From positions 1 through 64,000 of the forward strand of contig JAISGU010000022.1 of assembly GCA_031262935.1 (NCBI GenBank): a DNA stretch of 64,000 bases. Reading direction: 5' to 3'. Under the pieces are notes generated by a model. The model saw only the letters and a program-made list of their open reading frames with translations, was not told where the DNA came from and did no database searches. The position numbers were made by a program, and so were the translations under genes. Of the stretch, positions 2,600-52,978 are shown one piece after another (position 1 is the first letter of the stretch; every line of letters begins with the position of its first letter). This DNA comes from Mycoplasmataceae bacterium (GTDB lineage: Bacteria > Bacillota_I > Bacilli_A > Mycoplasmatales > Mycoplasmoidaceae).

Positions 2600-3244
2600 A
2601 TGAAAAAAAGTGTGTGTGTTTGTATATTAGGGGGAGGAATAGTAACTCCTTTATTGTTATCGAATTGTGGAAATAAGGAACAAACGTTTTTATTTCCTGA
2701 TAGTTTAGAAAAAGTAAACTTTGAATGACAAGAAGACAATGAACTTTATTTAAAAACTAATAATGTGTGCGTAGGTGAAAATAGAACTGTTACATATTTT
2801 CATAATACGACAGGTTGTGTTATGAATTTTTCTGGGATATATTGTATTTGATGAGAAAATAATACATCATCATTAAATATTAATTCCGATAATTTTTTAG
2901 AATTTATAGATTTTTCTGGTGATCACACTATAACTCCTTTATATATGCCAGAGGTTGGCGAGAATTGCGATTATAGCGGTTATACTTTAGACTTCAGTAT
3001 GACTGCGATTTATCATATTGATCAAGAAATACATTATTCTGATCAGATAGTTGCTAAACAAAATTTATTACATTTAGACCGATTAGATGATACCCCTCAT
3101 TACATACCATCATCTGGTGACTATAATCTTTATCTACTAAAAACAAACGATGCCACATTTAGTATTGATGATAACAAAACTCATCTTCAATGAGAATATT
3201 CAATTAAAAGATATGATATTGTTCATCATTTTAATGTTACCTAA
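2600..3244 (+). CDS. Secreted lipoprotein, function unknown
   Basis: The 214-residue protein starts MKKSVCVCILGGG and has a lipobox LLLSNC near residue 24, so it should be diacylglyceryl-modified by Lgt and cleaved by LspA, leaving Cys-Gly-Asn at the mature N-terminus on the outer face of the membrane. The mature part is rich in aromatic and acidic residues (SGIYCIWWENN, ENCDYSGYTLDF) and has four further cysteines but no domain I recognise. A weak AAGGAATGA ribosome site precedes the ATG. It stands alone between the IS remnant and xylB. Mollicute surface lipoproteins of this kind are commonly antigens or nutrient-binding proteins. Confidence 0.8.
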
Positions 3245-3340: not shown

Positions 3341-4792
3341 ATGTATTTAGGAATAGATGTAGGTACTAGCTCATTAAAAACAGTGCTAGCAAATGAAAAA
3401 GGAGAAATTATTGATCAATCATCAGCAAGTTATGAATTGTTAATTCCTAAACAAGGATGAACAGAACAAGATCCTGATGATTGATATTTAGCAGAAATCA
3501 AAACTATTAAAGAAATTGGAAAAAGAAATGATTTAACTAAAGTTAAAGGCATTTCTTTTTCTGGTCAAATGCATGGATTGGTTATTTTAGACAAAAATAA
3601 TAAAGTAATTAGACCAGCCATATTATGAAATGATCAAAGAACAATTGAAGAAACTAATTATTTAAATACAAAGATTGGTAGAGAAAAATTAATTTCTTAT
3701 ACTGGCAATATTGCTTTTACTGGTTTTACTGCCCCTAAACTGCTTTGATTAAAAAAACATGAATCTAACAACTTTAAAAAAATTAATAAGATTATGTTAC
3801 CAAAAGATTACACTGCATTTAAAATGTGTAACACCTTTGCAACAGACGTAAGCGATGCTAGCGGAACATTAATATTTGATGTACATCACAAATGTTGATC
3901 AAAACAAATGATTAAATTTTTAGGTATTAATGAAAAACAATTACCAAAGATTTATGAAAGTTACGAAATTATTGGTAATGTTTCCAAAGAATTTGCATCA
4001 CTTACTGGATTATCAACATCAGCTAAAGTTATTATTGGTGGTGGAGATCAAGCCATAGGAGCTATCGGTACAGGAACCGTTGATAATAACATGATTAGTA
4101 TTTCATTAGGGACAAGTGGTGTTGTGTTTGCTGCCTGTGATACTTTCAAAAAAACTGAAAGTGGGGCAATGCATGCTTTTTGTCATGCTAATGGAAAGTA
4201 TCACATTATGGGAGTAATGTTATCAGCGGCTGGTAGTTTTGATTGGTGATGTAATGATATTTTAAGAACAAGACATTTTAGTGACATTAATAAAGAAATA
4301 TCAAAAAGTAAAATAAGTAATCTATATTTCTTACCATATATCTCTGGGGAGAGAAGTCCAATTAACGATCCTATAGCAACTGGATCTTTTATTAATTTGA
4401 CTTTATCTCACAAAAGAGGCGATTTGTCTCGTGCAGTTATTGAAGGAATTAACTTTGGACTATTAGATAATTTAATATCGATTAATAACTTAAACATTAA
4501 GCCAACATCTGCACGAGTCATTGGTGGTGGAGCTAAATCAAAGATTTGATTACAAATGTTGGCAGATACACTAGGAATTAAATTACATACCATTAATACT
4601 AGTGAAGGTGGTGCATTAGGAGCAATTATTTTAGCAATGGTTGGGTGTAGACAATACAAGAATGTACAAATAGCTTGTAAGAAAATTATTAAAGATGTAG
4701 AGACATATCATCCTAATATGACAAATAATAAAATTTATCGCAATAAATTTGCTAAATTTAAATCTTATTACTTAACATTGAGGGCCGTTTAA
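3341..4792 (+). CDS. xylB: Xylulokinase (FGGY carbohydrate kinase)
   Basis: The 483-residue protein belongs to the FGGY kinase family and most resembles XylB, which phosphorylates D-xylulose to xylulose 5-phosphate for the pentose phosphate pathway. The N-terminal ATPase motif DVGTSSLKT, the substrate loop SFSGQMHGLV, ILWNDQR and TAPKLLWLKKHE are all present. The C-terminal half has GGGDQAIGAIG with the catalytic Asp, SLGTSGVVF, and the adenine-binding IGGGAKSKIW...EGGALGAIILA. Length matches E. coli XylB. No xylose isomerase or transporter gene is in view, so the true sugar is inferred from overall resemblance only. Confidence 0.88.
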
Positions 4793-31291: not shown

Positions 31292-32359
31292 TTACCTCCC
31301 TAAATAATATAGCATTTGTTCGTTTGTTCTCATTGTGTCTTCTTTTTTATTTTTTCTAAAAAGATTACAAATCGGCTGTCAAATTTTATATTTACGCAAA
31401 TTAGGGAAAACGGTGTGATTTAAAACAATTAACACAATAGCAGCTACCAATCAAATAATTGAAAATGTCAATGACCCTGCGTTGAATGCATATTGTGAAT
31501 ATCTAAATGGATTCATAATTGTTCTTAAAATACCATATCACAAGAAATAACCCAATCCTAAATCACCACAATTTTTCTTAGGAATTAATTCTCCTATAAA
31601 ATAAATGAATACTAGACCAAATCAGTTTGTAAATGATTCATAAAAAAAGAAAGGTTGATATACGCCATTAGGACCTGTAAAATTAGGATTATCATGAATA
31701 TACATATAAGGAAATAAATTTTGAATAAATTTAGCGTATTCACCATCAATCATTCCACCAACAACTTCTTGATTCATATAGTTTCCATATCGTCCTAATA
31801 CTTGTCCGATTAAAATACAAGGAATAATAGCATCAACATAAACTCACATCGAAACTTGTCTAACAACAGCTGGTTCATTTAGTTCGTCTCTTACTTGATA
31901 TTTAGGTTTTTTAAGGATTAAAGGAAAATAAATCATCGCAATGATGACATCTAAAATTACCCCCCCCTGTACCGCTAATCCTCCTTCTCTAAAAGATCAA
32001 AAACTATTTCATTGTGCATCACCAATACAACAACTTCAAAATCTTGCTCCCAAGATTGCTCCAGGTATTCCCATAATACAATATCAATAGAACGGATCAA
32101 TTGGACATTTATATACTTTTCACAATTTTATACAACCGATAAAAATAGCAAGAATAAAACCCAAAAAAATAAAAATACCGTACCACGCTACTGATAAACT
32201 GCCTATTTTGAATGCTACGTTGGTTACATCTGGATCATATTGTTTGCTGCTTAAGACAGTAACTGCTAATATGAATATTAGTAATGGAATAAATAAGATA
32301 AATGGTGCAGTTATAGCAATTCATTGTCAAAAAGATTTACGATCATTAAGAACATTCAT
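31292..32359 (-). CDS. lgt: Lgt, prolipoprotein diacylglyceryl transferase
   Basis: A 355-residue polytopic membrane enzyme that transfers diacylglyceryl to the lipobox cysteine, the first step for the four lipoproteins in this window. The signature LGRYGNYMNQE is near residue 205 and VAWYGIFIFLGFILA near residue 55. In the REGGLAVQGGVI motif the His that most bacteria have before GG is Gln. The two Gly codons of that motif lie in a G8 run (31960-31967), in frame as sequenced. At least ten TGA Trp codons. Confidence 0.94.
31960..31967 (-). repeat. G8 homopolymer inside lgt
   Basis: Eight consecutive G on the coding strand (C on the plus strand) encode Q-G-G-V. The gene is in frame at this length; gain or loss of one G would truncate Lgt. 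Long G runs are very rare in this AT-rich sequence. Confidence 0.85.
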
Positions 32360-48813: not shown

Positions 48814-50889
48814 ATGAAAGACATTCCTAAAATTTTTGGTGAAAATGTTTTTAATAAAGAGCAAATGCTCAAATATCTTGGTGACGATACTTACCAAAAA
48901 TATCGTAGAGCAGTTAGAAATGATGAAAAAGAAATTATAGATTTAGATTTAGCAAACAAAATTGCTGACGGCATGAAAAGGTGAGCGATTTCTAAAGGTG
49001 CAACTCATTACACCCATTGGTTTCAACCAATGAATGGAATGTCTGCTGAAAAGCATGATAGTTTTATTGAACCAATTGGTGAAGGAAAAGTTGTGATGAA
49101 CTTTTCTGGTAAACAATTAATTAAAGGCGAAACTGATGGTAGTTCATTTCCTAATGGTGGTTTAAGAAGTACATTTGAAGCAAGAGGGTATACTGCTTGG
49201 GATGCAAGCAGTCAAGTATTTGTCAGAAATGAAACTTTATATATTCCTACCATCTTTATGTCTTATTATCGTGATACACTTGATAAAAAAACGCCATTGC
49301 ATTTATCAAGTACATCACTTAAAAAACAAACCATTAGATTTGTTAATCTATTTGGTCATAAAACTAATCATGCAAGAGTAACTGTTGGAGCAGAACAAGA
49401 ATATTTTTTAATAAATAAGGAAATGTTTGATAAACGATTTGATTTAAAACTTACTGGAAGAACATTATTTGGAGCAAGACCACCAAAAAGTCAAGAATTA
49501 GAAGATCATTACTATGGACAAATAAAAACAAAAGTAATGCAATTCATGCAAGAACTTGACATGGAATTGTGAAAACTTGGTATTCCTTGTAAAACAAGAC
49601 ATAACGAAGTTGCTCCATGTCAACATGAATTAGCACCAATCTTTGAAAGGGTATCGGTAGCTTGTGATCATAATGAACTAACGATGGAGATTCTTAAAAA
49701 AACTGCTGAGAAATTTGGGTTTGTATGTTTATTACATGAAAAACCATTTGCATACATTAATGGTAGTGGTAAACATAATAATTGATCAGTAAGCGCTGAT
49801 AAAGTAGGCAATATGTTTGATCCAGGTAATCATCCTGAATCAAACTTAATGTTTCTACTTTATGTAACTTGTTTAATGTCGGCCGTTGATCTACATCAGG
49901 ATATTTTAAGAATATCAGTAGCATCGCCTGGTAATGAACATCGATTAGGTGCAAATGAAGCGCCACCGGCAATTATTAGTATGTTTTTAGGAGAACATAT
50001 TAGTAGTATTTTAGAATCTTTCCCTAACTTTAATACCAGCAAGAAAGTAGCTTTAACTTCTAGAAATATTAAATTTATTGCCAATTTTGATAGCGACACA
50101 TCTGATCGCAATCGTACATCACCTTTTGCGTTCACTGGTAATAAATTTGAGTTTAGAATGCCAGGTAGTTCAATTAATTTATCTTGTGTTAATACGATGT
50201 TAAATACAGCTTTTGCAGATGTATTAATGAATGTGTGTGATGAATTGGACAATAATCATAGTGAAACAAATATCAAAAAATTAATTACTACACTTTATAA
50301 AAAACATAAAAGAATTTTATTCAGTGGCAATGGCTATAGTAAAGAATGAGAAGTTGAAGCTAAAAAAAGAGGTTTATTAAATTTAAAAACTGTTCCTGAA
50401 GCTCTTGCATATTATGACAACAAAGAGAATATTGAATTATTTAAAAGGCAAAATGTTTATACAGAAGTTGAAGTTAAAGCTAGGAAGAATATTTTATTAG
50501 AAGAATATTGTAAAGTTATTAAGATTGAATCATTAGTAATGTTAGATATGTTAAATCGTGAAATCTTGCCAAGTGTTTTTAAATACCAAAATAAATTAGC
50601 ACAAACCATTACTAATAAAAAAACTATTAAAGTTTCATCAACTAATGAAATTAGTTTATTAAAAGAAATTAATGAATTAACCAATAAAGTAGAAGCTTCT
50701 AGAAAATATTTATTAGATGCTTTAAAAATAGTTAGAAACATTAGTGACTGATTAAAAAAAGCCACTTTATATCGTGAAAGAGTTTTTAAAGCAATGGAAC
50801 AAATTAGAAATTATTGTGATCAATTAGAAAGATTAGTGGCTAAAAAATATTGACCATTCCCAACATATGCAGATATTTTGTTTTTTTAA
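48814..50889 (+). CDS. glnN: Type III glutamine synthetase (GlnN-like)
   Basis: A 691-residue enzyme of the large GSIII class, making glutamine from glutamate, ammonia and ATP. GSIII-specific N-terminal residues ([30 protein letters not shown]) are followed by the catalytic core: [23 protein letters not shown]-like [34 protein letters not shown], and [20 protein letters not shown]. The long C-terminal helical part (residues ~560-691) is complete. GSIII is known from Bacteroides, cyanobacteria and some Firmicutes; it is unusual in a mollicute. Its product would serve carbamoyl-phosphate and purine synthesis. Confidence 0.95.
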
Positions 50890-50937
50890 GAAATTAGTAG
50901 ATAATTAACTTATTAAGGAAAAAGGAAACAAACAAAC

Positions 50938-51554
50938 ATGAAAAAACTACATACAATCTTGTCCATCTCTACAATTCTTGCAGGGGGGGGTTATTAACAA
51001 CTCTTTCTGCAACTAGTTGTAAAAAGGAACCTTTTCTTAAAGCTACTAATATTAAAAATGTTTATAAAATGAATACAGATTTACACATAAATGTAAATTT
51101 AGATTCTTTAGAAGAACTAAATAAATTGAAAATAGAGGGAGATTTGTTATTTGTTTGTAATAAGGATAAAAGAGATTGTTCTGATTTACAAATGAGTATT
51201 ACATCTGAGAATACAAATGTTGATGATTGAAAAGAGATTTCATGAAATGTACTAATCATCCTAACTTATTTCATATCCAATTTTTCATGTGATAAAACTG
51301 GAAAAACTCTATACGATAATTCAGATGATGGTATTAGTATAGATTCAAATTACAACCATTATTTCTTTATTGCCGATATGGATTATGGATTCATAGTTGA
51401 CCAAACAACATATTCTGTTTGAAAACTTACTTGTGATGTTGATGTATCTGGAATTCAAAACGTTGATAGTGGAGTAATTCCACCAAACTCACATGTAAAT
51501 ACAACACCTGTATATATGGATAACTTTACTGCTAATTATTCACCAGTATCTTAA
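50938..51554 (+). pseudogene. Lipoprotein gene switched off by a G8 tract (phase-variable)
   Basis: ATG 50938 follows AAGGAAAAAGGAAA and begins MKKLHTILSISTILAGG, but after the G8 run the frame hits TAA at once. One more G (or two fewer) would join it to LLTTLSATSC, a perfect lipobox, and a 187-residue mature lipoprotein ending at TAA 51552-51554. The mature frame is free of stops and has no domain I recognise. The tract sits in the signal peptide, the usual place for on/off switching by slipped-strand replication in mollicute surface proteins. Currently OFF unless the run was misread. Confidence 0.8.
50983..50990 (+). repeat. G8 homopolymer in lipoprotein signal peptide
   Basis: Eight consecutive G. 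In-frame lengths would be 6, 9 or 12. Confidence 0.9.
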
Positions 51555-51646: not shown

Positions 51647-51696
51647 AATTGGTATTTTATAAAATAATTGGTATTTTCTAAGATAATTGGTATTTT
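51647..51696 (+). repeat. Three 12-bp direct repeats, 19-bp spacing
   Basis: aattggtatttt occurs exactly at 51647-51658, 51666-51677 and 51685-51696, each starting 19 bp after the last. The last ends 13 bp before a TATAAT box, so the repeats cover the -35 region and upstream of the ATPase promoter. Probably operator sites for a repressor or activator. The rest of the gap 51555-51721 shows nothing else. Confidence 0.8.
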
Positions 51697-51709
51697 GCTA
51701 AATTATTGA

Positions 51710-51715
51710 TATAAT
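51710..51715 (+). promoter_or_regulatory. TATAAT -10 box for the 51722 ATPase
   Basis: A perfect TATAAT ending 6 nt before the ATG; likely leaderless transcript. Confidence 0.55.
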
Positions 51716-51721
51716 CAATTT

Positions 51722-52978
51722 ATGATAAAACGAATACTAGAACCATTGATAAAACGATATTTATCTATTTTTGGCGGTTTATTAATAACTGGAGCTAAAG
51801 ATGTAGGTAAGACAGAAATATCTAAATTTTTTTCAAAAATGATATGAAAACTTGATGATGCTGAGACATACGATATAGTAAAGAACGATTATCGGAAAAT
51901 TTTAGAAGGTAAACAACCAATCCTTATCGATGAATGACAATTAATACCATCTGTGTGAAATACGGTGAGAAATGAAATTGATAGAATTAATAAGACTGGT
52001 TTATTTATCTTAACAGGTTCATCATCTTTACTTGATAAAAACATTATTAATAAACTACATTCTGGAGCTGGCAGACTTTGTAAAATAAAGATGTACACAC
52101 TAACCGCAACAGAAATAGGGTTTTCTAAAAAAAATATAAGTTTTCAAGATTTATTTAAAGGTAATTTAAAAATCAAAAAAATTTATAACTCATACACATT
52201 CAAAAATTATGTAGAGTTGTTGTGTAAAGGTGGTAGACCGAGAGTGGTTGATAAAACATGTACAAACGCAATGATTTCTAATGCTGGTTATTTAGATGAA
52301 ATTTCTGAATTATCTGATAAAGTGACCGGTATCCAACAAAATTCTTTTTTAAAAGTGGTATCATCATTGGCGAGAAATATTTCGCAAGATGTTACGTATG
52401 AAACGCTATCAAAGGATAGCGGATTAATAAACGATGTTGTTTACAAGTACTATGAGTATTGTAAAAAGATTTTTATTATCGAACCTTTAGAAACTTGGAA
52501 TGTTCATTTGCGTTCGTCTGCAAGTTTAAGAGTAAAACCCAAAATACATTTTTCTGATACATCAATTGCAGTAACTGCTATAAAGGGCACAGTTGAAAAA
52601 TTTATAGAAGAACCAAAAGATTTTGGTTTATTCTTTGAAGATTTAGTAATACATGATTTGAGAGCTTACGTTTCAATTTCGAATGATTTCATTTCATACT
52701 ATCGTGATTCTCAGGGGCTCGAGATAGATTGTATTATTGAAAAAAGAGACGGATCATGAATTGCTATAGAAGTAAAGACTAATGATGATGACTTAATTGA
52801 ACATGCTGCCAATAACTTAAAATTATTACTTGATAAACTTCCTTTAAAAAAACAATCTATGAATAAAGGGCTATATATTATTACTACTAAAAATATTAGT
52901 TACACAAGAGAAGATGGTATCAACGTTATCAGTTTTGCTGATTTATGATTTGATATTGATGATTTTAAAATTGCTTAA
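51722..52978 (+). CDS. AAA ATPase of the DUF4143 type
   Basis: A 418-residue ATPase: Walker A TGAKDVGKTEISKFF (residues ~23-37), Walker B PILIDEWQLIPSVW, sensor FILTGSSSLL, and the DUF4143 region (RNISQDVTYETLSKDSGLINDVVYKYYEYCKKIFII). The C-terminus keeps the nuclease-like motif LEIDCIIEKRDGSWIAIEVKT with E-x-D...E-V-K complete. Role unknown. It differs from the other two ATPases here in having a repeat-controlled promoter. Confidence 0.83.

Follow-up and report, generated by a model that had tools for sequence, protein, structure and literature searches.

Homopolymeric tracts that switch surface proteins on and off have been described in several mollicutes. The P68 gene of M. bovis has a 5' poly-G tract of 8 to 10 bases among strains, and the P48-like gene of M. 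agalactiae (MAGa1620) encodes a lipoprotein with a 5' poly-G tract as well (PMC2824730). In M. hominis, the Vaa adhesin gene carries a poly-A tract at its 5' coding end (PMC524362), while the phase-variable repeats of Candidatus Mycoplasma girerdii include a G8 tract in the gene of a type III methyltransferase (PMC5476646). A first-pass annotation of the DNA studied here, a stretch of 64,000 nucleotides that we call the window, had proposed that one of its genes encodes a phase-variable lipoprotein caught in the OFF state by a run of eight Gs, and it invoked mollicute precedent for homopolymer switching; P68 and the P48-like gene provide that precedent.

Like P68 and the P48-like gene, the window gene encodes a lipoprotein, belongs to an AT-rich mollicute genome, and has a poly-G tract in its 5' coding region whose length joins the downstream frame to, or parts it from, the signal peptide and lipobox; the likeness is one of design. 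It differs from them in that the tract lies in a Gly-Gly-Gly signal-peptide motif that many unrelated lipoproteins share within a single genus. Vaa shares with the proposed switch the slipped-strand, translational on/off control near the N terminus of a surface protein, although its tract is poly-A rather than poly-G and the protein is a different one. The resemblance to Candidatus M. girerdii is that of another uncultured mollicute examined by metagenomics, in which the consensus is often OFF and a G8 is among the switches. There, variation was counted in reads, and the repeats are mostly dinucleotides in genes for BspA-like proteins and restriction-modification systems, in contrast to the G runs in lipoprotein signal peptides seen here. 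Given these precedents, the design of the switch is already known. What is new is that the genus is an uncultured one, that a signal-peptide cassette is shared, and that the loci are so many.

The reading frame around the G8 tract

The window gene lies on the + strand, as do its two intact neighbors, a type III glutamine synthetase gene (48814 to 50889) that ends 48 bases before the ATG and an AAA_14/DUF4143 ATPase gene (51722 to 52978). A purine-rich sequence read by eye, AAGGAAAAAGGAA (50915 to 50927), may act as the ribosome-binding site. The start codon and the first half of the signal peptide (MKKLHTILSISTILA) occupy 50938 to 50982 and are matched by positions 1 to 18 of signal-peptide profile A1 (E=3.4e-4). 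The G8 homopolymer, the proposed switch, follows at 50983 to 50990 (codons 16 to 18), and the frame breaks exactly there: translation from the ATG at 50938 gives MKKLHTILSISTILAGGGY, 19 codons closed by the TAA at 50995 to 50997, which would be the present OFF state. The second half of the signal peptide, LLTTLSATS (50991 to 51017), is read in a frame different from that of the ATG and leads into the mature lipoprotein, which extends from the lipobox Cys over 51018 to 51551 and is followed by a stop codon at 51552 to 51554. Thus, a Lys-bearing n-region, a hydrophobic core, and a lipobox Cys are all present, in two halves that flank the tract and stand in differing frames in the assembly.

Behind the tract, 187 codons run without a stop (50991 to 51551), a length expected by chance with a probability of about 2e-5 in simulation. 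Scored with the window's own codon usage, this frame reaches a log-odds of +45 bits, as against -150 to -208 bits for the other computed frames, and it is coding-like with no further defect. The earlier statement that a frame change at the G8 in the signal peptide is the sole interruption of the gene therefore agrees with what we found. The coordinates and arithmetic it gave for the restored frame also hold, but its figure of 187 mature residues does not: 187 counts from the tract, and since the Cys codon of the lipobox (LSATSC) is at 51018 to 51020, the mature part has 178 residues. The source organism reads TGA as Trp, as its intact conserved genes such as lgt show (12 steps unlike table 11).

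Reading the sequence for another start codon in the downstream frame, lying before the tract in the signal-peptide segment, revealed none; translation that began at 51069, where the first internal ATG lies, would yield a product lacking a signal peptide. Neither a promoter excess nor a terminator was found around the window gene. Just 5' of the ATPase gene, three copies of AATTGGTATTTT at a spacing of about 20 bases (51650 to 51712) are possible operator repeats. On the other side, the nearest relatives of the glutamine synthetase are from Clostridia and others at no more than about 54% identity, in a searched set that may omit near records; to judge from these matches, the gene was possibly gained horizontally.

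The mature protein is an orphan. It had no homologue among 59 related genomes, no relative in the viral contigs searched, and no family or match in Pfam, NCBIfam, or the PDB. A comparison with 109 lipoprotein-like sequences, drawn from the window and from the other loci examined, gave no credible relative (best E=0.014), and a single-sequence fold model was unusable (pLDDT 35). The orphan status counts on the side of the idea that the frameshift is fixed, the gene being a pseudogene in early decay that does not switch reversibly, because selection on an orphan mature protein is not measurable. Against such decay stands the position of the break, which falls in the G run.

Long G runs and signal-peptide paralogues in the source genome

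The first-pass annotation had called the G run conspicuous in AT-rich DNA, and the counts bear this out. Only two G/C runs of 8 occur in the 64-kb window, where Markov models of order 1 to 3 predict 0 to 0.13 runs of exactly 8, and the whole source genome (741,621 bases in 46 contigs, 84% complete) has only six distinct G/C runs of 8 or more. We inspected each of them. Lipoprotein signal peptides hold three, on contigs C35 (the window gene), C43, and C44; the remainder, all in frame, are in the genes for two exported proteins on C9 and for Lgt. The first C9 run is in the N-terminal hydrophobic segment of a 505-residue exported protein, and the second is in an adjoining 722-residue protein that is likewise hydrophobic at its start.

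The lgt gene lies in the window itself (31292 to 32359) and encodes prolipoprotein diacylglyceryl transferase (TIGR00544, E=5.8e-49), so that the lipidating enzyme is present in the genome. Its in-frame G8 (31960 to 31967, - strand) falls in the conserved Gly-Gly motif of the enzyme, where slippage would affect all lipoproteins together.

A Gly-Gly-Gly motif in itself makes a G run more likely at this site in the signal peptide, which counts against the switch. GGG makes up 9.7% of the Gly codons in the window, however, so that three in succession are expected about once in 1,000, and other lipoprotein signal peptides of the genome use GGT GGA, GGA GGT, or GGG GGT; these varied codons indicate that the motif can be encoded without a pure G run. 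In a separate lipoprotein gene of the window (2600 to 3244), a (GT)5 repeat is present at codons 4 to 7 together with an interrupted Gly run (GGG GGA GGA), and the gene is in frame.

When the genome was searched with the first 23 bases of the window signal peptide, allowing up to three mismatches, exactly three sites were found: the window gene, C44:20211, and C18:7427. From the ATG to the lipobox, their signal peptides share about 90% identity; past the lipobox the similarity ends, and the mature parts are unrelated. In the C44 copy, a G9 followed by an A puts the gene out of frame, and the 235 codons after it are intact, while the C18 copy has an A-interrupted run (GGG GGA GGG) that keeps the whole signal peptide in one frame, in a protein of 506 residues. 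A fourth lipoprotein, at C43:1702, is in frame with a G8 at the corresponding position. Since one signal-peptide cassette is joined to mature proteins that are unrelated, the portable part may be the switch itself. That near-identical signal peptides of one genome differ in phase also speaks against a fixed frameshift. A further locus of this genome (L213, G000:C39:6286) has a full lipoprotein signal peptide and a stop after 42 codons, and it could be a remnant or a mini-lipoprotein; taken as a 42-residue remnant, it would count in favor of a fixed frameshift.

We considered whether the broken frame is an error of consensus or assembly, in which case the cells would carry another tract length and the gene would simply be on. 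The source assembly is fragmented and incomplete (46 contigs, 84%), G runs are error-prone, and homopolymers are classic sites of indels. On the other hand, long open reading frames cover about 90% of the window despite 109 A/T runs of 7 to 9, so that widespread indel errors are absent, and the G runs of lgt and C43 are both in frame. Several independent genomes, moreover, have out-of-frame tracts (see below). We consider an error at this site unlikely, and even a real one would leave the tract a slippage site.

G tracts across the genus

A search of 36 genus genomes with ATGAAA-N15..45-G7 gave 71 hits, compared with 25 for the reversed control, and in the source genome it gave 6 compared with 0 (overlaps counted in all cases). 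When we kept those in which a lipobox follows the tract, the survey set came to 29 lipoprotein genes with G7 to G10 in 10 genomes. The tract lies 22 to 63 bases from the ATG, positions that are partly conditioned by the search, since the pattern fixes the distance to ATGAAA. At least 28 lipoprotein genes of the genus besides the window gene thus carry the same kind of G run. Twenty of the 29 survey genes are in frame and nine are out of frame. G028 has four of each phase, most of them long homologues of one another. The number of G8 matches per genome ranges from 0 to over 120, a spread along which one could trace how contingency loci are gained and lost.

All nine out-of-frame genes remain open behind the tract, for 146 to 687 codons, which is not what fixed frameshifts in decaying genes would lead one to expect. 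One lipoprotein gene with an out-of-frame G8 (G026:C3:49179) does bear a second frameshift downstream, so that some out-of-frame copies are decaying. Weighing this together with the evidence from the source genome, we regard it as improbable that the window gene is a pseudogene of this kind.

The window locus itself is without a homologue in the 59 genomes, and a change in tract length was seen elsewhere, in a pair of related sequences. Over the 3,006 bp that G026 and G035 have in common, 2 bases are mismatched and the sole gap is a G9/G8 difference. The gap lies ten codons into a gene and decides the frame of 323 codons (L022 in G035, L187 in G026). This 323-residue gene is not the window gene; it is without a lipoprotein signal, and no Pfam family was found for it. 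Either assembly could be wrong at this site; even so, the one indel in these 3 kb falls in a G run.

DNA-level differences of this kind also bear on recoding, whereby the RNA polymerase would slip, or the ribosome shift frame, on the G run and so yield some full-length protein from unchanged DNA. Polymerase slippage at homopolymers is generally known, and "riboshifting" has been proposed as an alternative for the P48-like gene of M. agalactiae (PMC2824730). However, slippage of the DNA is indicated by tract lengths that differ in the DNA itself, both among the paralogues and from G026 to G035, and we consider recoding very unlikely to account for the window gene.

Among tracts that slip at a high rate, one of eight Gs would be short, and this weighs against the switch. 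MutS (PF00488) was found in none of the 36 genus genomes, compared with 11 of 14 control genomes, and its lack fits fast slippage.

The proposed signal-peptide switch

Taken together, the G runs in other lipoproteins of the genus, among which both phases occur, make an on/off slippage switch very likely. The best reading of the window gene, and one we hold with good though not full confidence from the sequence comparisons, is that it is a contingency locus encoding a phase-variable lipoprotein caught out of frame. The case for a switch is carried by its relatives rather than by the locus alone: the paralogues in the same genome, the tracts of the genus, and the G8/G9 difference between G026 and G035 all support what the first-pass annotation had proposed.

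We envisage that a pure G run is kept at the conserved Gly-Gly-Gly motif in the hydrophobic core of the signal peptide, where polymerase slippage would gain or lose single Gs at a high rate, aided by the missing MutS-type mismatch repair. The window tract itself would then vary in length. One in three length classes would bring the lipobox and mature protein into frame with the start codon (ON), and such cells would export a lipid-anchored protein that presumably resides at the surface. The other length classes would terminate early (OFF), here after a 19-residue peptide, and the assembled consensus would represent this OFF state. The selective reason may be surface diversity in the face of host immunity, phage, or niche.

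On this reading, bacteria known to vary their surface through slippage at poly-G would gain an uncultured genus, and the list of loci would allow the state of each switch to be read straight from metagenome reads. Tentatively, and with a little less than even confidence, we extend the proposal to a genus-wide poly-G switch, in which interchangeable signal-peptide cassettes with a pure-G Gly-Gly-Gly motif, placed on unrelated surface proteins, would be combined in at least one member with C-run/G-run tracts flanking the promoter -10 element, giving two random on/off layers.

Paired tracts of the latter type recur in G027. A C run of 8 to 12 is followed by a TATAAT-like -10 element and then, about 30 to 50 bases on, by a G run of 8 to 10, at L194:2143-2189, L189:2985-3050, L191:2423-2482, L192:5395-5451, L199:1968-2023, L202:1919-1965 and 4036-4081, and L203:1919-1967. 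From their arrangement, these pairs look like promoter-level contingency loci. Often a AGTGCTATAAGCACT-like stem comes next, and the pairs lie 5' of several surface-protein genes.
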